The translations under genes were made by a program, and so were the position numbers. This document shows, piece by piece, positions 2,242 through 36,338 of a stretch of DNA of 45,575 nt. A model generated the notes under the pieces. The model did no database searches. It was given only the letters and a program-made list of their open reading frames with translations, and was not told the origin of the DNA. Source of the stretch: Actinomycetota bacterium (GTDB lineage: Bacteria; Actinomycetota; CADDZG01; WHSQ01); NCBI GenBank assembly GCA_009379915.1, contig WHSV01000021.1:1-45575 (forward strand), written 5' to 3'. Every line of letters starts with the position of its first letter. Position 1 is the first letter of the stretch.

Positions 2242-2753
2242 CAACGATCACACACGAGACGTTGTCCTCCGCCGAGTGGGCCGCGCGCGCTCCGGTGCTC
2301 CGCGACGAAGGCTGGATTCTTCTCGACCTCCACGGCGTTGATCGGCTCGGGCTCACCGAGGAGGATGAGCGAGGACGGTTCGAGATCGTTTGTCAACTCC
2401 TAAAGCGAGCCGACAAGAGCCGCATGACCGTTCACGTGGCAGCGGAGGGAAACCCACCGGCGATCGCGAGCGTCACGAGAGTCTGGGGCACCGCCGGCTT
2501 CGCCGAGCGAGAGACGTACGACATGTACGGCATCGTGTTCGAGGGACACGATGACCTCTCGCGCATCCTCATGCCGGATGAATGGGAGGGCTATCCCCTT
2601 CGTAAGGACTACGACGTCGGCAAGATCGCCATCGATTTCAAGCCGCAGCCCTTCCTTCAGATCGAAACCCCCGGACAGGCGCCGACCATCGGCGAGTCCG
2701 AGGTCGGGACCGACGAGCTCGGACAGATAAAGCAGGATGACGCCGATGAGTAA
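2238..2753 (+). CDS. nuoC: NADH-quinone oxidoreductase subunit C (first operon)
   Basis: A 171-residue hydrophilic 30-kDa-type subunit that packs against NuoD and NuoB. The family signature appears as [19 protein letters not shown] followed by the [15 protein letters not shown] block near residues 95-128. GTG start at 2238 overlaps the nuoB stop. It is a separate gene rather than the NuoCD fusion of enterobacteria. The 3' end overlaps the nuoD start by a few bases. Confidence 0.95.
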
Positions 2754-4005
2754 GACCGAGAGAACCCTCGAGGAGCACGAGCTCATCCAGCGCATAGAGG
2801 GCGACGGTCAGGGTGCGTTCGTCGAGTCCTACGATGCCGAAGCCGAGGTCATGACGATCAACATGGGGCCGGTGCACCCGGCGACCCACGGAGTGCTCCG
2901 CCTCTTCCTCGAGCTCGACGGTGAGACCGTCATGGATTGCAAGCCCATGATCGGCTATCTCCACACGGGCATGGAGAAGGAGTGCGAGGACCAGAACTGG
3001 CGGGGCGCCGTGACCATCGTCACGCGCATGGATTATCTGGCACCGTTTCACAATGAGCACGCGTATTCGCGCGCGGTCGAGAAGCTGCTGGGCATCGAGG
3101 TTCCGCCGCGCGGCGTGTACATCCGGATGCTCATGTCCGAGCTCAACCGGCTTACCTCCCACCTGGTGCAGTTCGGCACCCAGGGCCTCGACATGGGCGC
3201 CATGTCTGCGATGTTCTACGGATTCCGTGAGCGCGAGATCATCACCGACTTCTTCGAGATGGTCACCGGGCTCCGAATGAACCACGGCTACATCGTTCCC
3301 GGGGGCGTGTGGGAGGACCTGCCCGATGGGTGGCAGGAACAGGTGGCGAACATCCTCGATGTCATGCCGGGACGCCTGAACGAGTACCAGGATCTCTTGA
3401 GCGAGAATCCCATCTTCATCGAGCGCACGCGTGGAGTCGGCACGATCACCGCCGAGGAGTGCGACACCCTCGGTGTGACGGGTCCGATCGCTCGAGCTTC
3501 CGGTATCGACTGGGACCTTCGTCGGGACATGCCGTACGAGGCCTACGACGAGCTCAGCTTCGAAGTGCCGACTCAGGAGCAGGGCGACGTCTACGCGCGC
3601 TATCAGATTCGGATGGCCGAGATGGTGCAGTCCGTCGCTCTCCTCGAACAGATCGTCGACCAGATGCCCGACGGCGACTACAAGAACATGGACCCTAAAC
3701 TGACTCCGCCACCTCGCAGCGAGCTCAATCGCTCGATGGAGGCCGTCATTCACCACTTCAAGCTGGTCACTCAGGGTTACGCGGTCCCCAAAGGCGAGTC
3801 ATACTTCGCGGTCGAATCGCCGCGCGGTGAGCTCGGCGCGTTCGTCGTATCCGACGGAGGGACCTCGCCGTACCGGTGTCATGTCCGCGACCCGAGCTTC
3901 TACAACCTCCAGTCGCTCCCCGTTATGGCGAAGGGCGGTTTGATCGCGGACCTCATCGCCTGCATCGCGTCGCTGGATCCGATCATGGGAGGAGTCGACC
4001 GCTGA
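2746..4005 (+). CDS. nuoD: NADH-quinone oxidoreductase subunit D (first operon)
   Basis: The 49-kDa-type subunit lining the quinone pocket, 419 residues from ATG 2746. I prefer this start over ATG 2737 because a GCAGG element lies at suitable spacing; both are in frame. The quinone-site histidine is in HPATHGVLRL (about H48) and the tyrosine equivalent to Thermus Nqo4 Tyr87 is in TRMDYLAPF (about Y97). The C-terminus ends in DPIMGGVDR as usual. It overlaps the nuoC end and its TGA overlaps the nuoE ATG by one base. Compare NuoD2 at 26758, where that Tyr is Trp. Confidence 0.96.
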   Translation: MSKTERTLEEHELIQRIEGDGQGAFVESYDAEAEVMTINMGPVHPATHGVLRLFLELDGETVMDCKPMIGYLHTGMEKECEDQNWRGAVTIVTRMDYLAPFHNEHAYSRAVEKLLGIEVPPRGVYIRMLMSELNRLTSHLVQFGTQGLDMGAMSAMFYGFREREIITDFFEMVTGLRMNHGYIVPGGVWEDLPDGWQEQVANILDVMPGRLNEYQDLLSENPIFIERTRGVGTITAEECDTLGVTGPIARASGIDWDLRRDMPYEAYDELSFEVPTQEQGDVYARYQIRMAEMVQSVALLEQIVDQMPDGDYKNMDPKLTPPPRSELNRSMEAVIHHFKLVTQGYAVPKGESYFAVESPRGELGAFVVSDGGTSPYRCHVRDPSFYNLQSLPVMAKGGLIADLIACIASLDPIMGGVDR

Positions 4006-25322: not shown

Positions 25323-25691
25323 GTGCCTGAGGGTTATTTCGGGAGCTACGTGACTATCGGCGTATTCGCCGTAGTCGGGCTCGTGCTCGTATTCGGGACC
25401 CTCGCACTCACCCGCCTGCTGAGGCCCAATGTGCCGACCCGGGCCAAGACCCTCACCTACGAATCCGGCATCGACCCGATCGGTACGGGCTGGGCGCAGG
25501 CGAACGTCCGCTATTACGTCTTCGCACTGCTCTTCGTGATCTTCGACGTCGAGGCGGTCTTCCTCTTCCCGTGGGCGACCGTCTTCGAGGATCTGGGGAC
25601 CCAGGCGTTCGTCGAGATGGTCATCTTCATCGGGGTCCTGGCCCTCGCCCTTCTGTACGCGATCAAGAAAAGGGTGCTCGAGTGGCTGTAA
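25323..25691 (+). CDS. nuoA2: Complex I-like subunit A (second operon)
   Basis: A 122-residue NuoA/ND3 paralogue with three transmembrane segments, [13 protein letters not shown] and [15 protein letters not shown]. It opens the second, 11-gene operon with GTG 25323. There is only a weak ribosome site (GACGGG). The loop after YESGI is different from the first NuoA ([15 protein letters not shown] against [14 protein letters not shown]). The end overlaps the nuoB2 start by 10 bp. Confidence 0.95.
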
Positions 25692-26212
25692 TCGAAAAGG
25701 TCAAGCTCCCCAAGCCCGTCTCCTGGGCCCTCAACTGGAGTCGCCAGTACTCGCTCTGGATGCTGCAGTTCGGACTCGCCTGTTGCGCCATCGAGATGGG
25801 TGCGGCGATCGCAACGAAGTTCGACGTCATTCGTTTCGGAGTCATCCCCTTCCCGGCCTCGCCTCGCCAGGCGGACCTAATGGTCGTCGCAGGGACGGTA
25901 ACGGACAAGATGGCGGCACCGATCAGGCGTGTCTACGACCAGATGCCCGAGCCCAAGTACGTGATCTCGATGGGAGCGTGCGCGAATTGCGGGGGCCCCT
26001 ACTGGGACAGCTACTCGGTCACCAAGGGTGTCGACCAGATCGTTCCCGTCGACGTCTACGTCCCCGGTTGCCCGCCCAGGCCCGAGGCACTTCTGCAGGG
26101 GATCATCAGGCTCCAGCAGAAGATCGCAACCGAGGACGTCAGCACGCGGTGGGCCGGGCACGACACCGAGATTCCGCACATCCCCGAGCCGGGTCTGGCC
26201 GGAGGGGTCTAG
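25682..26212 (+). CDS. nuoB2: Complex I-like subunit B (second operon)
   Basis: A 176-residue NuoB paralogue with the N2 cluster ligands: C34 and C35 in [10 protein letters not shown]100 in MGACANCGG and C130 in VPGCPPRPE. The additional Cys103 is absent in the first NuoB. GTG 25682 lies inside the nuoA2 end. A 25-residue tail after [10 protein letters not shown] is specific to this copy. It should be the electron exit to quinone in the second complex. Confidence 0.95.
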
Positions 26213-26757
26213 TGAGGCTGGAGGCAGACGACGCGCTCGACCGCGTCAAGGGGGCATTGGGCGAGCGCGTCACGGACGCGCACCTGAACCACGGGCAGGT
26301 GGACGTGACCGTCGAGCCGGCCAATCTCGTGGAGGTCCTGACCATCCTGCGCGACGACATCGCGCTCGGCTGTCGCTTCTTCACCTTTCTCTCCGCGGTC
26401 GATCGCTCGACGTTCAACTTCGACGACGATAACGAGCAGGGTGGTCTCGAGGTTCTCGTGCATCTCTACAGCCCGGAGAAGATCTGGCACGTGAACCTTC
26501 ACGTCCCCCTCGACTTCGATACTCCGGTCTGCCCCTCGATCACCGGCGTGTTCAAGGGGGCCGAGTGGCACGAGCGCGAGACGGCCGAGATGTTCGGCAT
26601 CCACTTCACCGATCACCCGAACCTCGTGACCCTCTACCTCTCGGAGGACTTCGAGGGTCACCCGATGCTCAAGTCCTTCAAGCTTCCGGCGCGCAGCTAC
26701 GTCAAGGACTGGCCGGGAGCGAAGGACCCGGACGAAGCGGCGGCGGGGGGCCGGTAG
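26212..26757 (+). CDS. nuoC2: Complex I-like subunit C (second operon)
   Basis: A 181-residue 30-kDa-type subunit. The signature is AEWHERETAEMFGIHFTDHP followed by LYLSEDFEGHPMLKSFKLP. GTG 26212 overlaps the nuoB2 stop by one base (TAGTG). It is separate from nuoD2, whose ATG directly follows the stop. It is divergent from the first NuoC in both ends, consistent with an old duplication or separate acquisition. Confidence 0.94.
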   Translation: MRLEADDALDRVKGALGERVTDAHLNHGQVDVTVEPANLVEVLTILRDDIALGCRFFTFLSAVDRSTFNFDDDNEQGGLEVLVHLYSPEKIWHVNLHVPLDFDTPVCPSITGVFKGAEWHERETAEMFGIHFTDHPNLVTLYLSEDFEGHPMLKSFKLPARSYVKDWPGAKDPDEAAAGGR

Positions 26758-27996
26758 ATGGGGGCCATCCGCGGGGCGGGCTCGGCCGGACCGCCAGAGA
26801 CACGCGGGGCGGGCTCGGCCGGACCGCAGAGAGTAATGGATCCCGAGCTCCAGAACCTCCAGGACTCGAGCGCGTTCGCCTCCGAGGTGTCGGAGGGCAG
26901 GCTCGTGACCGAGGAGATGCTACTCAACGTAGGGCCCCAGCACCCCGCGACCCACGGAGTCTTCCGGTTGCTTGCGACCATCGACGGCGAGCGCATCGTG
27001 CGGGCCGAGCCGGTCGTCGGCTACATGCATCGTGGCTACGAGAAGCTCGTCGAGCAGCGCGATTACCGGCAGATCACGAACCTCATCAGTCGCATGGACT
27101 GGCTCTCGGGGATCAACAACGAACTACCTCTGGCCCTCGCGCTCGAGGAGCTCATGGAGATCGAGGTGCCGCCGCGCGCCCAGTATCTCCGAGTCGCTCT
27201 TGCGGAGATGAACCGCATCCTCAACCACCTGATGTTCTTCCAGTCGTTCTCCGCGGAGCTCGGAGCCATCACCCCCACCTTCTATGCGTTCAGGGAGCGC
27301 GAGGACATCCAGTACGCGATGGAGTCTGTTACCGGCGGACGCATGCATTTCGGCTACTTCCGGCCCGGCGGATTGAAGGAGGACGTGCCCAAGGGATTCA
27401 TCGCGATGGCCCTCGCCGCGGTTCGCAAGGTCATCCAGCGGCTTCCCGACTACGAGGACCTGCTGACGGGAAACGAGATCTTCAAGCAGCGAACCATCAA
27501 CGTCGGAGTGCTCGACAAGGAGGTCGCGTACTCGTACGGAGTCTCCGGGCCCATCGGCCGGGGGTCGTCGATCGACATGGATGTGCGCCGGGACGAGCCC
27601 TATCTCGTGTACGACCAATTCGATTTCGAGGTTTGCAATGGGACTCACGGCGACTGCTTCGACCGCTTCTGGGTATTGCTTCACGAGGTCGTCGAGTCGG
27701 CCAAGATCGTCGAGCAGGCTCTCGCCGGACTGCCTCCCGGTCCGATCATGGGCAAGGTTCCGCGCGTCGTCGAGGCGCCGAAGGGTGAGGTCTACGTTCG
27801 CACCGAGAACCCTCTGGGTGAGCTCGGCTTCTACCTCGTCTCCGATGGTGGCCGGAGGCCGTACCGGATCAAGATTCGAACCCCATCCTTCTCGAACGTG
27901 TCGGCGTTGCCCCACGCCCTCCAGAACACGCTCGTTGCGGACATGATCGCGATCCTCGGCTCCTTCTTCTTCGTGCTGGGGGACGTCGACCGTTGA
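26758..27996 (+). CDS. nuoD2: Complex I-like subunit D (second operon)
   Basis: A 412-residue 49-kDa-type subunit from ATG 26758, which abuts the nuoC2 stop; an in-frame ATG at 26836 would remove a 26-residue leader made mostly of two RGAGSAGP repeats. The core begins TEEMLLNVGPQHPATHGVF with the conserved His66. At the position of the quinone-site Tyr (Thermus Nqo4 Tyr87) it has Trp115 in SRMDWLSGI, while NuoD1 keeps Tyr. The end FVLGDVDR is canonical and overlaps the TTG of nuoH2. The substitution may alter quinone binding. Confidence 0.94.
   Translation: MGAIRGAGSAGPPETRGAGSAGPQRVMDPELQNLQDSSAFASEVSEGRLVTEEMLLNVGPQHPATHGVFRLLATIDGERIVRAEPVVGYMHRGYEKLVEQRDYRQITNLISRMDWLSGINNELPLALALEELMEIEVPPRAQYLRVALAEMNRILNHLMFFQSFSAELGAITPTFYAFREREDIQYAMESVTGGRMHFGYFRPGGLKEDVPKGFIAMALAAVRKVIQRLPDYEDLLTGNEIFKQRTINVGVLDKEVAYSYGVSGPIGRGSSIDMDVRRDEPYLVYDQFDFEVCNGTHGDCFDRFWVLLHEVVESAKIVEQALAGLPPGPIMGKVPRVVEAPKGEVYVRTENPLGELGFYLVSDGGRRPYRIKIRTPSFSNVSALPHALQNTLVADMIAILGSFFFVLGDVDR
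26770..26794 (+). repeat. 25-bp repeat, copy 1 (nuoC2/nuoD2 junction)
   Basis: A 25-bp GC-rich sequence starting CGCGGGGCGGGCTCGG and ending CCGGACCGC, identical to copies at 26803 and 30379. The interior GGCTCGGCCGGACC is a near-palindrome. Read in the nuoD2 frame it encodes RGAGSAGP. Confidence 0.9.
26803..26827 (+). repeat. 25-bp repeat, copy 2 (nuoC2/nuoD2 junction)
   Basis: Identical to copy 1, 33 bp downstream and in the same reading frame (RGAGSAGP). It lies just before the alternative nuoD2 start at 26836. Flanks A on the left and AG on the right are shared with copy 3, making those two identical over 28 bp. Confidence 0.9.
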
Positions 27997-28997
27997 TCGA
28001 AATCACTCTGACGGACTGGCAGATCCTCTTGGTCAAGCTTCTGATCATCCTGATCGTCGTGCCCGTCGGAGCGCTGGTCGGTGGCTATGTCCTGCACAAA
28101 GAGATGGCCCACATGCAGCACCGTCTCGGCCCGATGTACGCCGGTGGATGGCACGGCTGGGCGCAGACTCTCGCCGACGGAATCAAGTTCGCCTACAAGG
28201 AAGACATCATTCCGGCGAGCGCGGACAAGCGTGTGTTCTCGCTTGCTCCGGCCGTCATCTTCGTCCCGGTTCTCCTGCTCTATCTGGTGATCCCGATCGA
28301 TCAAAATCTCATCGTCGAGGACCTCGACGTCGGTCTGTTCTTCCTGCTGGCGATCGGCTCGGTGGGCTCGATCGGCGTGCTCATGGCCGGGTGGTCCAGT
28401 GCAAACAAGTACGCGTTGATCGGAGCGTTGCGCTCCGCCGGACAGCTCATCGCCTACGAGCTGCCGATCGTGCTCAGCGCCGCCGCCATTGCCATGCTCG
28501 CCGGAACGCTTTCGCTGGTCGGCATCGTCGAGGCCCAGGATTGGCCCTACATTGTGTGGCCGCCGGGAATCGGCCTCGCGCTGTTCCTCTTGTTCCTGGC
28601 GGGGGCGATGGCGGAGATGGCGCTCCCGCCGTTCGACATGCCCGTGGCCGAGTCCGAGCTCATCACCGGGCCCTTCACCGAGTACACCGGCATGCGCTTC
28701 ATCTTCGGGTTCTTCTTCGCCGAGACGGCGCACATGATCGCGTTCGCGGCGATCGGCACGACGCTGTTCCTCGGCGGGTACAAACCGATCGTTCCATGGG
28801 AGCCGCTCGAGGTAATCCCCGGCGTGCTGTGGTTCTTCGTCAAGACCTCGTTCATGGTCTTTCTGTTGTTGTGGGTCCGGTTCTCGTTCCCGCGCCTGCG
28901 CGAAGACCAGCTCCAGAAGTTCGCGTGGAAGGCCCTCATTCCACTGTCCCTCGTGCTGATCCTGGCGACCGGCGCGTGGATTCTCTACGGCCCGTGA
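27993..28997 (+). CDS. nuoH2: Complex I-like subunit H (second operon)
   Basis: A 334-residue quinone-chamber membrane subunit from TTG 27993 (TTGA overlap). About eight helices. The loop that reads [13 protein letters not shown] in NuoH1 is [13 protein letters not shown] here, so Asn-Arg is Ala-Leu (210-211) and the first Glu of PEAE is Val218; Glu220 and TEYTGMRF remain. Near the N-terminus [18 protein letters not shown] replaces the usual RIGPNxxGP form. It directly follows nuoD2: nuoE, F and G are absent from between them. Confidence 0.94.
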
Positions 28998-29010
28998 TGC
29001 GAGGAATCGA

Positions 29011-30438
29011 ATGGCTTTAGACGTCGACCAGAGACTCGAGAGGGCGCGCAGACCCGGCTTCGGGATCGGGTTGCTCAAGGGAATGCGCGTGTTGCTCAAG
29101 CACCTCTTCAAGCGCAACTCCGTCATCCAATACCCCGACGTCAAGCAGGATCTCTCTCCGCGTACGCGCGGCGTGATCGCTCTCAAAGAAGAGAACTGCA
29201 CCGTGTGCATGCTCTGCGCGCGCGAGTGTCCCGACTGGTGTATCTACATCGATTCGCACAAGGAGACGTTGCCTCCGAAGCGCGAGGGCGGGCGTCCGCG
29301 CAAGCGCAACGTGCTGGATCGCTTCGCCATCGATTATGCGCTGTGCATGTACTGCGGGATCTGCGTCGAGGTCTGCCCTTACGACGCCCTGTTCTGGAGC
29401 CGTGAGTTCGAGTACGCCGAGTACGACATCCGGCAGCTGACCCACGAGAAGGAGAAGCTGTCGGACTGGATGGCGACGGTCCTGCCTCCGACCGAGCTCG
29501 AGGAGGGCGCCGACATCCCGGGTCAGCCGAGCAAGGCCGCTCCCGCGGCGGCCGCTGCGACCCAGACCGCGACTCCGACGGCCGCGGCCACGGCCGCCAC
29601 CCCGGCGAGCGTCACCTCGTCCGCGACCGAAGCCCGTCCCGGGCAGGCACAGACCGCACCCAGGGAGGGAACGGCCGCCACGGAGGCCGCTCGCCCCGCC
29701 GCCAGTGCGCCGGATGCGGCGACGACCCCGGCCCCCGAAACCGCGAAGCCGGCTCCCGGACTTGCCGAGGAGGTCAAGGACCAGCAGATGGACTCGACTG
29801 CCGAGGCTCGGGCCGAACCCGAGGTGAAACGGGACGCGGGGGGAGCCGTCGAAGCGGAGGGGAGCCAGGCCGAGGTAGAGGACAAAGCCGAGGCCGAAAC
29901 GCCCAGCACACCGGAGTCGACGGCCGTGACCCAGACTCCGCCGCCGGCCGCGGCCGCTCCCTCTCGCCCGGCCCCCCGAATCGAGGACCTCGAACAGCCC
30001 GAGGACGCGTACGCGCGTGTGCTCGATGAGCAATCAAAGGCGGGTTCATCTCCGCAGGTCGCCGAGGCGCGCGCCAAGGTCGCGCGCGTGAAAGCCGAAC
30101 GAGCGATGACGCAGGCGAGAGCCGCCGCTCCGCAAGAGGTCGCTCCGACACCCGAACCCTCGGGGGCGCCGGGGGCTGCCGAGCCCGAGCCCGAACAGGG
30201 CCCGGTTGCCCCCACGCCGGAGGAGAAGCCGGATTCCTCCGCCCCTCAGGCAGAGGCGTCGTCCCCCGGGGAAGATCCGGAAGCGGTCTTCGAGCGAGTG
30301 CTCGAGGAGGAGCGCGCCAAGGGATCGAGTGACGCGGTCGCGACGGCGCGCGCCAAAGCCGCTCGTATGCGAGCGGGACGCGGGGCGGGCTCGGCCGGAC
30401 CGCAGGAACAAGAAGGCACGAAGGGACCGAACGACTGA
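29011..30438 (+). CDS. nuoI2: Complex I-like subunit I with a long C-terminal extension (second operon)
   Basis: A 475-residue protein, nearly three times normal NuoI length. Residues 1-165 are NuoI: C63, C66, C69, C73 and C112, C115, C118, C122 bind two [4Fe-4S] clusters, with an extra Cys77. Residues 170-475 are rich in Ala, Pro, Glu and Thr and look disordered, except for two related charged modules at about 330-364 and 421-457, each of the form RVLxEExxxGSSxxVAxARAK. Near the end a 25-bp repeat encodes [11 protein letters not shown] 29011 has GAGGA upstream. The tail is cytoplasmic by topology; binding a soluble electron donor is an attractive but unproven role. Confidence 0.93.
30379..30403 (+). 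repeat. 25-bp repeat, copy 3 (end of nuoI2)
   Basis: Identical to the copies at 26770 and 26803, 3.6 kb downstream. It is in frame in nuoI2 (residues 457-464, RGAGSAGP), 35 bp before the nuoJ2 start, so again close to a gene junction. Confidence 0.9.
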
Positions 30439-30956
30439 TGGCCGATACCTATCTGCAGGTCATCTTCTGGGCCTTCTTCGCGTTGATGGCGATCGCCGGA
30501 ATTCGAGTTGTCACAACTCGCAACGTCATCCACGCAGCCCTCTATCTGGTCGCAACGCTCCTCGGCGCAGCGTCGATGTACGTTCTGCTCTACGCCGAGT
30601 TCGTCGCTTGGGTTCAGGTTCTCGTCTACGTGGGCGCGGTGGTCGTCCTGATGCTGTTCGGGCTCATGCTCACGAGAGCTCCCATCGGCAGCGCGAACTT
30701 CGACAACAACCAGCGTCTGGTCGGGGCCGTCTGCGCGGGGCTGCTGTTCGCCGTGACGAGTTTCATCATGGTGGGGGCGTTCGAGGGTCAGGAGATCGAC
30801 TTCACCGGCACCGAGGGGACGAAGGTTCAGAGCATCGGGGAGGCGATTTTCTCGATCTACGTGCTCCCCTTCGAGATCGTCTCGGTGTTGCTCCTCGCAG
30901 CGCTGGTCGGCGCGGTAGTGATATCCCGCAGAGATGAAGGGCGGGTGGATAGCTGA
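30438..30956 (+). CDS. nuoJ2: Complex I-like subunit J (second operon)
   Basis: A 172-residue ND6-type subunit with five predicted helices. Helix 3 reads [21 protein letters not shown], the family hallmark. ATG 30438 shares a base with the nuoI2 stop (TGATG), and its stop shares one with nuoK2 ATG. The loop between helices 4 and 5 contains [16 protein letters not shown]. Confidence 0.94.
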
Positions 30957-31261
30957 TGCCGGTGGCCTACTTCCTCGTGTTGTCTGCTCTCCTCTTCAGC
31001 ATCGGCGTCTACGGAGTACTCGCCCGCCAGCATGCCGTTTTGGTGCTGCTAAGCGTCGAGCTGATGCTGAACGCGGCGAACATCAACCTGGTCGCCTTCT
31101 CTGCGATGCTCGGCGAGGCCGGCGTTCCGGGACAGGTCTTTGCGCTGTTCGTGATCGCGGTCGCCGCCGCCGAAGTCGGCGTCGGGCTCGCGATCGTGAT
31201 CTTGATCTATCGGAACCGTCGGAGCGTGGATATCGATGAGATGTCATTGATGAAGTGGTAG
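30956..31261 (+). CDS. nuoK2: Complex I-like subunit K (second operon)
   Basis: A 101-residue ND4L-type three-helix subunit. Glu residues are in [14 protein letters not shown] and [15 protein letters not shown] 30956 overlaps the nuoJ2 stop. The C-terminus is LMKW like NuoK1, but the spacer to nuoL2 is 48 bp rather than 4 bp and holds a hairpin and an 8-bp direct repeat. Confidence 0.95.
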
Positions 31262-31274
31262 CAAGCACCTTGCT
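31260..31274. other. Hairpin in the nuoK2-nuoL2 spacer
   Basis: AGCAAG (31260-31265) and CTTGCT (31269-31274) form a 6-bp stem with a 3-nt loop, starting inside the nuoK2 stop codon. No T-run follows. It could tune expression of nuoL2 or mark an insertion (see the flanking repeat GAAGTGGT at 31252 and 31296). Confidence 0.4.
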
Positions 31275-31309
31275 CGAACATCGAGGCGAAGTGAAGAAGT
31301 GGTGATTGC

Positions 31310-33331
31310 TTGAACGCGCTGATGCTTGCAGCCGAGCAGATAGAGGGAGTCGAGGCCACCCGCACGGGTCTGTTCCCGGACCTCATGTGGCTCGTGCCTC
31401 TGCTGCCGGCGCTGTCCTTCCTCGTGATCCTCTTCTTCGGCAAGAGGTTTCCCGACAAAGGCCACGGTGTCGGGATCCTCGCCATCGGGATTGCCTTCTT
31501 CCTCTCGCTCGCGGGCTTCATCGACCTCATAACGGGGGCCGAGACGGTCGAGAAACACTGGGTCTGGTTCGAGCTCGAGACGCTCGAGTTGACCTTCGGG
31601 ATGAACTACGACTTCCTCACGGGACTGATGTTCGTCGTTGTGACGTTCATCTCGCTGCTGGTGCAGATCTACTCAACCGGTTACATGCTCGACGATGAGC
31701 GTTACACCTGGTTCTACGCGGCGCTGTCGTTGTTCACCGCCTCGATGCTGCTTCTCGTCACGGCCGACAACCTCATCATGATGCTGGTGGGCTGGGAGGG
31801 CGTCGGGCTCTGCTCCTACTTCCTCATCGGCCACTACTGGGAGGAGAAGCCCAACTCGTCGGCCGCAATCAAGGCCTTCATCACGACTCGCGTCGGTGAC
31901 GTCGGATTCATGTTCGGCATCTTCGCCCTGTTCATCCTCGCCGGCACCTTCAACATCACCGAGATCAACCACCTCGCGGAGGAGGGCGAGATCGCCGGAG
32001 CCGGCCTGACCATCGCGGCTCTGCTGTTGTTCTGCGGGGCGATCGGAAAGTCGGCGCAGTTCCCACTCCACGTCTGGCTCCCGGACGCGATGGCGGGCCC
32101 CACTCCCGTCAGCGCATTGATACACGCAGCCACCATGGTCGTGGCGGGGATCTACCTCGTGGCTCGGTTGTTCCCCGTCTTTGAGTTCGCCAGCGGAGGC
32201 GTCCCCCTCGAGGTGGTTGGAGTGATCGCGGCGATCACGATGCTAATCGCGGCTTTCCTCGCGCTCATTCAGGACGACATCAAGAGAGTGCTCGCGTACT
32301 CGACCATCAGCCAGCTGGCATACATGTTCGCCGGGCTGGCCGTCGGCGTGTTCACGGCCGGCATGTTCCATCTCCTTACCCACGCGGTCTTCAAGGCGCT
32401 GCTGTTCCTCGGAGCGGGATCGGTGATCCACGCAGTTCATTCCAACAACATGAGCGATATGGGCGGACTGCGAAAGTACATGCCGGCCACGTTCAGGACG
32501 TACATCATCGGGTCCCTCGCCCTGGCCGGCATCTTCCCCCTCGCCGGTTTCTTCTCGAAGGACGAGATCATCGGTGGAGCGTTGCGAGCCGGGATCGACG
32601 GGACGCGTGCGACGGCCTGGATCGTTTTCGGATCCGCGCTGATAACCGCATTCATCACCGCGCTCTATTCGGCCCGCATGTGCATCAAGACGTTCTGGGG
32701 CGAGTACCGCGGCCACGGTCATCCTCACGAAAGCCCCGGCTCCATGACGAGTCCTCTGTGGGTGCTGGGAGGCCTCACCTTGGTGGTGGGATTCCTCGGC
32801 TTCCCGGTGATCGGGGTATTCAAGTACTGGATCTTCGCCGAGGGCGAGGTTGCTCACGGATTCGAGCCGCTCTACAACGTCGTGCTCCCCGTAATCACCG
32901 TGGGAGGCGCGCTGATCGCCTTCTTCCTCGCCTACAAGTGGTTCTATCGCAACGAGTGGAGGTTCGACTTCCGCAAGACATCGTTCGGATGGATGTACGG
33001 ATTCGCCGAGCGCAAGTACTACCTCGACGATCTCTACCTCGGCGGCATCGTGAAGCCGATTCAGTATCCTCTCGCCGCCGCGGCGTACTGGGCGAACCAG
33101 CACGTCATCGACGGAATCGTCGACGGCACCGCGCGAGGCACGGTTGGAGCCGCCTCGGGTACATACAGGGCCGACCAGGGTGTCGTCGACTTCGGAGTCA
33201 ACGGCGCGGCCGGCCTCACCAACTTCTCAGGCGGTTTGCTCCGCTACATCCAGTCGGGAAACGTCCAGCGCTATGCGGCCGTCTTGTTCGCCTCCGTAGC
33301 GGTCTTCGTAGCTGTTTTCGCATTCGCCTAG
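31310..33331 (+). CDS. nuoL2: Complex I-like subunit L (second operon)
   Basis: The 673-residue ND5-type pump, from TTG 31310 (ATG 31322 is an in-frame alternative). Glu in MLVGWEGVGLCSYFLIG, Lys in GAIGKSAQFPLHVWLPDAM and QDDIKRVLAYSTISQLAYM are intact, so proton pumping is expected. A His-rich loop GHGHPHESPG lies near residues 465-475. The C-terminal region includes FAERKYYLDDLYLGG, typical of NuoL. Confidence 0.95.
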   Translation: MNALMLAAEQIEGVEATRTGLFPDLMWLVPLLPALSFLVILFFGKRFPDKGHGVGILAIGIAFFLSLAGFIDLITGAETVEKHWVWFELETLELTFGMNYDFLTGLMFVVVTFISLLVQIYSTGYMLDDERYTWFYAALSLFTASMLLLVTADNLIMMLVGWEGVGLCSYFLIGHYWEEKPNSSAAIKAFITTRVGDVGFMFGIFALFILAGTFNITEINHLAEEGEIAGAGLTIAALLLFCGAIGKSAQFPLHVWLPDAMAGPTPVSALIHAATMVVAGIYLVARLFPVFEFASGGVPLEVVGVIAAITMLIAAFLALIQDDIKRVLAYSTISQLAYMFAGLAVGVFTAGMFHLLTHAVFKALLFLGAGSVIHAVHSNNMSDMGGLRKYMPATFRTYIIGSLALAGIFPLAGFFSKDEIIGGALRAGIDGTRATAWIVFGSALITAFITALYSARMCIKTFWGEYRGHGHPHESPGSMTSPLWVLGGLTLVVGFLGFPVIGVFKYWIFAEGEVAHGFEPLYNVVLPVITVGGALIAFFLAYKWFYRNEWRFDFRKTSFGWMYGFAERKYYLDDLYLGGIVKPIQYPLAAAAYWANQHVIDGIVDGTARGTVGAASGTYRADQGVVDFGVNGAAGLTNFSGGLLRYIQSGNVQRYAAVLFASVAVFVAVFAFA

Positions 33332-33347
33332 AAAGGGGTTCGAGAGA

Positions 33348-34868
33348 ATGTCATGGGTTGACGACTGGGGGCTGAGCCTCGCGACGTTCCTGCCCGCACT
33401 GGGTGTGGTCATCCTGATGTTCCTTCCCAACCGGGAATCCCTCGTCAAGATCACGGGGACGGCCTTCGCCGGCCTTGCGCTGATCGCCGGCATCCTGTGT
33501 GCGGTCCGTTTCGATTACTCGAGGGGCGATCAGATACAGCTCGAGGTCGACTCCACGTGGATCGAAACAATCGGCGCTCGTTACCACGTGGGGGCAGACG
33601 GCATGTCGCTGCCCCTGCTTCTGTTGAGCGTCCTCGTGTGTTTCCTCTGCATGGTCTACATGTGGTGGCACATTCCCGAGCCGGGTAAGCCGAAGGCGTT
33701 CTTTGCCCTCGTTCTCCTGCTCGAGACCGGAATGAACGGCACTTTCGTCGCACTCGACCTCATTCTGTTCTTCATCTTCTTCGAGCTCGTGCTCGTGCCG
33801 ATGTATTTCATGATCGGAATCTGGGGCGGTCCCGACCGCGACTACGCGAGCGTCAAGTTCTTCCTCTACACGTTGTTCGGTTCGATCTTCATGCTGCTTG
33901 GTTTCCTTGCGCTGTGGATCCACTCGGGGGCCGAGACCTTCGACATCATCGCCCTGCGTGAGAGCACCGCGGGAGCGAGCGAGCTGTTCCAGAACCTCGT
34001 GTTCCTCGGCCTGTTCCTCGGTTTCGCGATCAAAGTGCCGATGTGGCCGTTCCACACCTGGTTGCCCGACGCTCATACCGAGGCTCCGACCGTGGGCTCG
34101 GTGCTCCTGGCCGCAGTGCTCCTGAAGATGGGGACCTACGGCTTCATTCGAATCGCGCTGCCGATCCTCCCCGACGCTGCAGTGACTTTCGCGCCGGTCA
34201 TCGGCATCCTTGCCGTGATCGGCATCATCTGGGGTTCGCTGTGCTGCTTCGCGCAGACCGACCTCAAACGTCTCATCGCCTTCTCGTCGGTCGGCCACAT
34301 GGGCTTCGTGATGCTCGGCATCGCGACGCTCACCGATACCGGGATCAACGGAGCCATCTTCGGGATGGTGGCCCACGGCCTCATCACCGGGATGCTCTTC
34401 TTCCTCGCCGGATCGATACACGAGCGCTACCACACGCGCGAGATCGCCGCCCTCGGGGGAGTGCTCAAGCAGATTCCGCGCTTCGGGTCGGTCTTCTCGT
34501 TCGCGGCGATTGCATCGCTGGGCCTTCCGGGGCTGGCCGGGTTCTGGGGCGAGATGCTGGCTCTGCTCGGCGCCTACCAACCGGCTCCGGGACTCAACGT
34601 CGAGCTGTTCCGTGTCCTCATGGTCATCGGCGGTATCGGAACCGTTCTCACGGCCGGGTACCTTCTGTGGACGGTTCAGCGAGTAAATCTCGGCACCGTG
34701 CCCGACAAGTTCGCGTCCGGTAAGGGGATCTTCGACGTCGAGCGACTCGAGTGGACCGCCTGGGTTCCTCTTCTTCTCCTCATCGTCGTGGCCGGTTTCT
34801 ATCCCGCCCTGCTGACCAACGTGACGGCCGACGCCGTCGGCGGTCTGGCGGGGATTTTCGGAGCGTAG
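33348..34868 (+). CDS. nuoM2: Complex I-like subunit M (second operon)
   Basis: A 506-residue ND4-type pump. Glu in FIFFELVLVPMYFMIG and Lys in LGFAIKVPMWPFHTWLPDAH are conserved, as is QTDLKRLIAFSSVGHMGF. ATG 33348 has GAAAGGGG about 10 bp upstream. The stop directly abuts the nuoN2 GTG. Confidence 0.96.
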   Translation: MSWVDDWGLSLATFLPALGVVILMFLPNRESLVKITGTAFAGLALIAGILCAVRFDYSRGDQIQLEVDSTWIETIGARYHVGADGMSLPLLLLSVLVCFLCMVYMWWHIPEPGKPKAFFALVLLLETGMNGTFVALDLILFFIFFELVLVPMYFMIGIWGGPDRDYASVKFFLYTLFGSIFMLLGFLALWIHSGAETFDIIALRESTAGASELFQNLVFLGLFLGFAIKVPMWPFHTWLPDAHTEAPTVGSVLLAAVLLKMGTYGFIRIALPILPDAAVTFAPVIGILAVIGIIWGSLCCFAQTDLKRLIAFSSVGHMGFVMLGIATLTDTGINGAIFGMVAHGLITGMLFFLAGSIHERYHTREIAALGGVLKQIPRFGSVFSFAAIASLGLPGLAGFWGEMLALLGAYQPAPGLNVELFRVLMVIGGIGTVLTAGYLLWTVQRVNLGTVPDKFASGKGIFDVERLEWTAWVPLLLLIVVAGFYPALLTNVTADAVGGLAGIFGA

Positions 34869-36338
34869 GTGAACCCTCTTCTCGCCCAGTCCGTGACCCA
34901 GCCGAGCGTCGATTGGCACGCGCTCGCCCCCGAGCTCGTCATGGCGGGCACGGCCTGTCTCGTGCTGGTCGCGGATCTGTTCCTACCGCGGAACGCGAAG
35001 TGGATTGCGATGCCGCTGTCGGCGGCCGGGATCATCGGCACGCTCGCTGCGGTCGTGTCGCTGATCAATACCGAGACGACGACTCTGGCGGGAACTTTCG
35101 AGGTCGACGCCTTCTCGCTGCTGTTCAAGGGTTTGTTTTGCGTCCTCGGCTTGATCATCCTCGCAATCAGCTTCCATTACTTCCGGGCGGGTTCGTATTA
35201 CCAGGGCGAGTACTATTTCTTGCTGCTGTGCTCGCTCTTCGGAGGATTGGTTATTGCGAGCGCGCGCGATCTGATCTCGTTGTTCATCGCACTCGAGCTC
35301 ATCAGCATCCCCGGCATCGTCATGGTCGCCCTCAGGAAGGGGGACGCCAGAGCGAATGAGGGCGCGCTGAAGTTCTTCCTGTTCAGTGTGCTGTCCTCGG
35401 CCGTGATGCTCTACGGCATGTCGCTCGTCTACGGAGTGACCGGCTCGACGATTCTCTCCGAGATCCGCACGTCGATCGGGTCGGGCGACGAGCCCCTCGT
35501 CGTGCTGAGTGTGTTCTTCGTCGTGGTCGGGTTCGCCTTCAAGATCTCGGCGGTCCCGTTTCACTTCTGGGCCCCCGACACGTACGAGGGTGCACCGTCG
35601 CCGGTCGCAGCCTTTCTGTCGACCGCCTCCAAGATCGGGGGCTTCGTCGGGTTGCTCGTGCTCATGTTCAAGGCGTTCCCCGAGGTCGCCGACACATGGG
35701 CCCCCGTATTCGCCGTTCTCGCCGCTTTGACGATGACGGTCGGAAACCTGATCGCGCTGAGACAGCAGCACGTCATCCGACTTCTCGCTTACTCGGGGAT
35801 CGCGCAGTCGGGGTACATCCTCGTGTGCCTGGCGCTGATCAACCCCGGGAACCCGGACGCGAACGAGCAGGCTTTCGCTGCGGCCGTCATCTACCTGGCC
35901 ATCTACGGAATCATGGATCTCGGTGCCTTCGCTGCCGCGGTCGCGTTCGCCCGGCGAGGCGGCACCTACTTCATCAGCGACTACGCGGGTCTGTGGCAAC
36001 GGAGCCCGGTCCTAGCTCTTCTCTTCGGCGGTTTTCTCATCTCGCTTGCCGGCGCGCCGCCGATGGCCGGCCTCATCGCAAAGCTGTTTGTCTTCGCCGC
36101 GACCATCGAAGCTGAGGTTTACTGGCTGGCGATCGTCATGGGCGTCAACACCGTGATCGCCGCGTGGTACTACCTGGCGCTCATCAAGAAGATGTTCTTC
36201 GAGACCCCCGAGTTGGACGAACCAGTCGAGGTGCCGTACCTGCTGTCGGCCGCCATGGGCATAGCGGCCGCGTTGCTGGTGGCGCTGCTCGTGTACCCGC
36301 CGCTGCTGACGAACCTGGCGGACCGCTCGATCTTCTGA
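34869..36338 (+). CDS. nuoN2: Complex I-like subunit N (second operon)
   Basis: A 489-residue ND2-type pump and last gene of the operon, GTG 34869. Glu in LFIALELISIPGIVMV and Lys in VGFAFKISAVPFHFWAPD are present. The cytoplasmic motif normally DLKRLLAYS reads QQHVIRLLAYSGIAQSGY, so the usual Lys is Ile; NuoN1, NuoM1 and NuoM2 all keep DLKR. The functional effect is not known. Confidence 0.94.
   Translation: MNPLLAQSVTQPSVDWHALAPELVMAGTACLVLVADLFLPRNAKWIAMPLSAAGIIGTLAAVVSLINTETTTLAGTFEVDAFSLLFKGLFCVLGLIILAISFHYFRAGSYYQGEYYFLLLCSLFGGLVIASARDLISLFIALELISIPGIVMVALRKGDARANEGALKFFLFSVLSSAVMLYGMSLVYGVTGSTILSEIRTSIGSGDEPLVVLSVFFVVVGFAFKISAVPFHFWAPDTYEGAPSPVAAFLSTASKIGGFVGLLVLMFKAFPEVADTWAPVFAVLAALTMTVGNLIALRQQHVIRLLAYSGIAQSGYILVCLALINPGNPDANEQAFAAAVIYLAIYGIMDLGAFAAAVAFARRGGTYFISDYAGLWQRSPVLALLFGGFLISLAGAPPMAGLIAKLFVFAATIEAEVYWLAIVMGVNTVIAAWYYLALIKKMFFETPELDEPVEVPYLLSAAMGIAAALLVALLVYPPLLTNLADRSIF

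Follow-up and report, generated by a model that had tools for sequence, protein, structure and literature searches.

In models of the complex I mechanism, the tyrosine of the quinone site is central, both as a ligand and as a donor of protons, and laboratory substitutions of this residue (Tyr144 of the Yarrowia 49-kDa subunit) were reportedly made by Tocilescu et al. in 2010. The tyrosine has been called strictly conserved (PMC8119997). In Thermus, the quinone ring is in contact with Tyr87, Met51 and His38 (PMC7434922), and Yarrowia Tyr144 lies close to one of the Cys ligands of cluster N2 (PMC8042128). Enzymes in which this Tyr was changed to Phe still turn over and pump, protons being available from the Asp/His pair, which leaves an anionic quinol (PMC12890310).

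The closest described genes are those of Streptomyces, where nuo2 and a dispersed nuoD2 are already known. The nuo2 cluster has been listed without C, D and L and its function called unclear (PMC9239103); nuoD2 is not contiguous with the cluster, which is expressed as one operon (PMC3765725), and S. coelicolor has the Nuo2 proteins (SCO4599-4608) in much greater abundance than S. lividans (PMC9739823).

Two complex I gene sets in one window

The window (the whole stretch of 45,575 nucleotides analysed here, from an Actinomycetota genome) encodes complex I twice, in a nuoA1-N1 set of 14 subunits and in a nuo2 set of 11:

about 1.4-16.2 kb: nuoA1-N1, the 14-subunit set
2737..4005, forward strand: NuoD1 of the 14-subunit set, used as internal control, with Tyr100 (3034-3036) and with Thr in place of Arg92
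25323-36338, forward strand: nuoA2-B2-C2-D2-H2-I2-J2-K2-L2-M2-N2, without E, F and G
25323..25691, forward strand: NuoA2
25688..26212, forward strand: NuoB2, N2 cysteines kept
26212..26757, forward strand: NuoC2 (PF00329)
26758..27996, forward strand: NuoD2 of the 49-kDa/NuoD family, Trp type (PF00346, NCBIfam NuoD models, AlphaFold model)
27993..28997, forward strand: NuoH2
29011..30438, forward strand: NuoI2, with two 4Fe-4S motifs and a long Pro/Ala-rich C-terminal tail (TIGR01971 over residues 24-150)
30438..36338, forward strand: NuoJ2, K2, L2, M2 and N2, closing the EFG-less operon

No NuoE, F or G is encoded with nuo2, nuoH2 following nuoD2 directly, and EFG genes were found at none of the Trp-type operon loci. 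NuoD2 scores 291 bits against PF00346 (gathering score 24), and its AlphaFold model (pLDDT 83, pTM 0.86) superposes on many solved complex I 49-kDa chains with TM-scores of 0.87-0.90 at about 36-42% identity.

Several other features of the window were observed. The NuoI2 protein has 475 amino acids, of which the NuoI match stops near residue 150, and its C-terminal tail (29480-30438) is rich in Ala, Pro and Glu. A 24-base repeat encoding RGAGSAGP is present in three exact copies, two at the nuoC2/nuoD2 junction (26770-26793 and 26803-26826) and one at the 3' end of nuoI2 (30379-30402), and a related pair is found on another contig (L276:594-644). Directly before the 14-subunit operon, positions 147-1394 encode a geranylgeranyl reductase family protein which scores above the cut-off of TIGR02032 and below that of MenJ, and which may saturate the menaquinone side chain.

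Trp at the quinone-site Tyr position of NuoD2

Bases 27091-27105 read CGC ATG GAC TGG CTC (R-M-D-W-L), so that the motif of NuoD2 is SRMDWLSGI, versus TRMDYLAPF with Tyr100 in NuoD1. Residues of NuoD2 are counted here from the ATG at 26758, although the true start may lie at about 26836. The following codons are central to the comparison:

27100..27102, forward strand: TGG, encoding Trp115 and aligned with Thermus Nqo4 Tyr87 (the quinone head-group Tyr), in frame in the NuoD2 ORF
26953..26955, forward strand: His66, equivalent to Nqo4 His38, the quinone-site His, kept as His in 183/183 sequences of the Trp clade

The initial annotation, which had described a Trp in place of the quinone-site Tyr, a retained partner His and hence a change at the reaction site itself, proved correct to the base. 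Trp115 falls on Tyr87 in an ungapped alignment to Thermus Nqo4 (2fug_4), and both His residues of HPATHG are kept (His62 and His66, corresponding to Nqo4 His34 and His38). A misalignment with the Tyr equivalent lying elsewhere is ruled out, as the RMDW region is free of gaps and Arg84-Asp86 are invariant; a sequencing error or chance is likewise ruled out by the fixation of Trp across the clade, and the expected number of chance matches of the motif pattern in the window is 0.

Distribution of the Trp

Orthologues were collected by homology alone, whichever residue they carried, and a 396-genome sample of the phylum added further loci. Within the same family and class as the window's genome, all NuoD2 fetched in this way have Trp and all NuoD1-type proteins have Tyr, and the homology-fetched loci together gave 76 distinct NuoD2-type sequences with Trp and 25 other distinct NuoDs with Tyr. 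Over the whole collection, Trp is found in 184/184 sequences of the clade versus Tyr in 28/28 outside it, a count that takes in pattern-selected loci, the unbiased figure for Trp itself being 76/25. This fixation makes NuoD2 a variant of the 49-kDa family rather than a typical member. When the alignment was masked at the Trp column and at two neighbouring diagnostic columns, the Trp-bearing NuoDs still grouped into a single clade, its branch having an SH-aLRT of 100, and the tree required one change of the residue. Since the lowest-scoring Trp and the highest-scoring Tyr sequences are at a similar distance from the window (about 48-51% identity), the residue tracks lineage and not overall similarity.

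A motif scan of 84,980 bacterial and archaeal species, whose pattern required the GY-x-H context and thus covers Trp in that context, returned at least 120 Trp loci; among the matches listed, 119 are labelled Actinomycetota (Actinomycetes, Acidimicrobiia and unclassified). The candidate from outside the phylum (L173, labelled Acidobacteriota) is nearly identical to L086 of the window's phylum, and its label is probably wrong. No Trp was found in the 14-subunit NuoDs examined. The initial annotation had also raised the idea that Trp might be general to actinobacterial 11-subunit sets, which is ruled out by the Tyr kept in other EFG-less sets of the phylum (L266, L267, L268, L271, L272, L274 and L275). 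Judged from sequence, the Trp marks one lineage, which we name Nuo2 after Streptomyces usage. Further Tyr-type EFG-less complex I sets of the phylum (L028, L029, L103-L120) occupy separate branches of the NuoD tree.

Linked changes around the quinone and N2 pocket

Pocket columns of NuoD were compared over the 184 Trp and 28 Tyr sequences, and changes were found there as well as in NuoB2 and NuoH2:

27256..27258, forward strand: Glu167 at Nqo4 Asp139, the partner of His38 (in the clade, E 145, Q 39, D 0)
27967..27972, forward strand: Phe404-Phe405 at Nqo4 Asp401-Pro402 (position 404, F 126, Y 41, D 15; position 405, F 181/182)
27814..27816, forward strand: Leu353 at Nqo4 Arg350 (L in 169/184 of the clade; R/K in 27/28 of the Tyr class)
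25799-25801, forward strand: Gly38 of NuoB2 at Nqo6 Met51 (G 38, I 22 and Met 5/69 in NuoB2)
28644-28646, forward strand: Val218 of NuoH2 in the TM5-6 loop (P-[VI]-A-E instead of P-E-A-E)

The first Glu of the NuoH2 PEAE loop is replaced by V/I/L in 69/69 sequences and is Glu in NuoH1, Nad1 and NdhA; variation at D139 is not confined to the Trp clade, the Tyr sequences having D 15, E 8 and N 5 there. His34, His38, Arg84, Asp86 and the N2 tandem Cys are unchanged in Nuo2, the tandem Cys 32-33 being kept in 69/69 and 68/69 NuoB2 sequences, and the remaining two N2 Cys are present in the NuoB2 sequence of the window. With clade-wide fixation and at least six other pocket changes in NuoD, NuoB and NuoH, the case for an altered reaction site is stronger than the initial annotation could know. 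The contacts of the NuoD2 pocket residues would be those described in the Thermus papers, from which we infer them by analogy. Because the linked changes have a single ancestral origin, mutual dependence among them is not demonstrable.

Within the Trp clade, the D139 and D401 equivalents (27256-27258 and 27967-27969) covary, Glu occurring with Phe or Asp and Gln with Tyr (38/39). In the Gln139-Tyr401 pairing, a phenol perhaps returns from the opposite side of the pocket.

Nuo2 in sole-copy genomes and in Streptomyces

A Trp-type NuoD is the sole NuoD of three near-complete genomes (G017, G018 and G020, 94-97% complete), and in G018 and G020, whose regions were read, it is part of a full A-N set without EFG. 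No NuoF was detected above noise in any of the three, and menB is present in all of them, a combination which makes it unlikely that Nuo2 is a relic.

In a complete Streptomyces-type genome (G044), the second nuo cluster consists of A2, B2, C2 and H2-N2 with no D, and besides the NuoD of the 14-subunit operon there is only one other NuoD, which is of the Trp type and lies about 200 kb off the cluster, an arrangement in agreement with the non-contiguous nuoD2 of PMC3765725. The D-less nuo2 cluster and the distant Trp-type nuoD2 are thus the only matching parts in Streptomyces. By tblastn, nuoC2 and nuoL2 are recognisable in the Streptomyces-type nuo2 (L242, G044:C1:5172000-5191000, and L243), D alone being missing. 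In another complete genome (G080), a decayed nuo2 cluster with A2, B2, C2, a truncated H2 and I2 was observed (L259, G080:C1:446000-465000); no J2-N2 were found adjoining it, and this genome still has a Trp-type nuoD2 and a PF02636 gene.

Arg92 and a PF02636 methyltransferase

Another residue of NuoD2 distinguishes it from NuoD1 and Thermus:

27031..27033, forward strand: Arg92, equivalent to human NDUFS2 Arg85 and Yarrowia Arg121 (Arg in 184/184 Trp sequences; Thr in NuoD1 and Thermus)

A gene of the PF02636 methyltransferase family, to which both MidA and NDUFAF7 belong, was found near orphan nuoD2 in 62/87 loci (examples are L124:2095-3096, L027:3059-4132, L256 and L257); first-pass gene calls had given 77 nuoD2-only loci, and a second search upheld genuine orphans beside PF02636. 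Among 60 genomes, PF02636 is present in 32/37 with a Trp-type NuoD vs 1/23 without (Fisher p about 1e-10, uncorrected for kinship). The window's genome carries it on another contig (G000:C116:12-674). It is absent from five Trp genomes of two families, and methylation is therefore not obligatory. Human NDUFS2 Arg85 is dimethylated by NDUFAF7 (PMC3829151), and the equivalent Arg of Yarrowia, next to N2, is required for a stable N2 (PMC8042128). By analogy, this MidA/NDUFAF7-family enzyme probably has Arg92 of NuoD2 as its methylation target.

Quinone, electron donor and alternative explanations

The initial annotation had suggested a different quinone, orientation or mechanism. That Nuo2 uses another quinone or a non-quinone acceptor, with Trp as the adaptation, would fit the joint alteration of several head-group contacts (Tyr87, Met51, D401-P402). 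However, menB is found above its curated cut-off in the window's genome and no futalosine gene (MqnA/MqnD family) was found there or in the Trp-only genomes, so that a single menaquinone route was detected for both complexes, one of which, with the Tyr-bearing NuoD1, works in the same cell; menB likewise exceeds that cut-off in the Trp-only genomes, and Streptomyces-type genomes have futalosine genes, yet the same Trp. The menaquinone genes examined thus offer no support for a special quinone of Nuo2, and we regard this explanation as decidedly unlikely; a different orientation or mechanism is the likelier part of the proposal. Thermus uses menaquinone, and Trp as an adaptation to menaquinone is ruled out by the Tyr of Thermus Nqo4 and of NuoD1 in the same cell. 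As for the electron donor, F420H2 has been proposed for Actinomarinales (PMC7771536), and an F420H2:menaquinone oxidoreductase like archaeal Fpo, in which Trp would be incidental, is consistent with the EFG-less set and with the enrichment of F420 ligase (33/37 Trp genomes vs 12/23 non-Trp genomes). Nevertheless, this enrichment derives partly from common ancestry, no match to F420 ligase was found in the Trp-bearing G306 (scored 100% complete), no FpoF-type F420 input subunit occurs among the window ORFs read, and NuoD2 stays far below the cut-off of the NCBIfam FpoD model (356.8 bits versus 600), which together make an Fpo-like Nuo2 rather improbable, albeit not negligible.

The same F420 ligase counts, the missing NADH module and a pocket that, having lost the acidic Tyr and D401, is a poorer proton donor might also suit an enzyme that runs mainly backwards, the proton-motive force lifting menaquinol electrons to F420 or ferredoxin and Trp tuning quinol oxidation. 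Considering that no donor or acceptor gene is linked to the nuo2 operon among the window ORFs read, that F420 ligase also occurs in genomes without the Trp and that direction is not readable from sequence, we consider this unlikely. A hybrid, with NuoD2 swapping as alternative D subunit into the 14-subunit complex, would fit the unlinked nuoD2 of Streptomyces and the hybrids suggested in PMC9239103; it is very improbable given that nuoD2 lies within the nuo2 operon in Acidimicrobiia and in the window, that NuoB2 and NuoH2 have matching pocket changes and that three genomes lack NuoF and any Tyr-type NuoD. Relaxed selection on a decaying, quinone-inactive site, of which the decayed cluster of G080 might be taken as a sign, appears hardly credible, since Trp, Phe405, His38, Arg84, Arg92 and the N2 Cys are (nearly) invariant down to about 48% identity.

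A remodelled pocket as the preferred explanation

The explanation that we favour, and think probable, is that Nuo2 is an EFG-less lineage whose quinone pocket was remodelled once and is still active with menaquinone, the His38/Glu-Gln side and not a Tyr giving the protons. In the ancestor of this lineage, Trp, which is bulky and not acidic, would have taken the place of the acid Tyr, with a repacking of the pocket wall around it (Met51 to Gly/Ile, D401-P402 to aromatic-Phe and R350 to Leu, together with D139 to Glu/Gln and the NuoH loop Glu to Val/Ile). Electrons would still be exchanged between N2 and menaquinone. The Trp may hold or stack the quinone head group, or else block its approach to the old hydrogen-bond position; the first proton would come from His38, its Glu/Gln partner and water instead of Tyr, an anionic quinol or semiquinone intermediate would be favoured, and the midpoint potential, inhibitor sensitivity or preferred pump direction might be shifted. 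Methylation of Arg92 would serve to hold N2 in the high-potential form. Building on the simulations and mutant data of PMC12890310, we regard as likeliest a Nuo2 in which the His/Glu side is the proton source and Trp serves for packing or stacking; the sequence changes themselves are shown, whereas how protons are delivered and whether the direction has changed are inferred.

A broader view, which we put forward tentatively, is that Nuo2 could be a Tyr-less, proton-pumping menaquinone complex I with another proton route, possibly in reverse, and a phylum-wide second solution to the quinone site with a dedicated NDUFAF7-type methyltransferase.

Comparison with known systems

In the non-subscription literature searched, no report was found of the Trp, of the linked pocket changes or of the methyltransferase association. 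NuoD2 shares its fold, His38, Arg84 and the N2 site with canonical 14-subunit NuoD/Nqo4/NDUFS2, but differs from canonical complex I by Trp for Tyr87, by six other changed pocket positions and by a set without NuoEFG. The NADH module is absent, as in Nuo2, from the 11-subunit enzymes of Desulfitobacterium, cyanobacterial NDH-1 and archaeal Fpo, and in such enzymes, Nuo2 included, electrons presumably enter at NuoI. In contrast to Nuo2, the Tyr-type EFG-less sets checked within this phylum keep the Tyr, and the signature of Trp at Tyr87 and Phe at Pro402 could serve to tell Nuo2 apart from other EFG-less sets.

The Streptomyces nuo2 (SCO4599-SCO4608 plus the dispersed nuoD2) belongs to the same lineage, and orphan nuoD2-type genes of Streptomyces have the Trp. 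Its nuoD2 lies about 200 kb off, beside a MidA-family gene, whereas that of the window is inside the operon, and C2 and L2 were found in G044, while C and L were given as missing in PMC9239103. With the Trp-type nuoD2, the Streptomyces cluster makes up a full 11-subunit set whose parts match and which has a quinone site of its own. The Yarrowia 49-kDa Tyr144 mutants concern the same residue as Trp115, but the change in Nuo2 is natural, fixed and accompanied by linked changes. Nuo2 is thus a natural run of a mutation long studied in laboratories, and a large natural Tyr-less clade that includes the genetically tractable Streptomyces makes the role of the Tyr directly testable.
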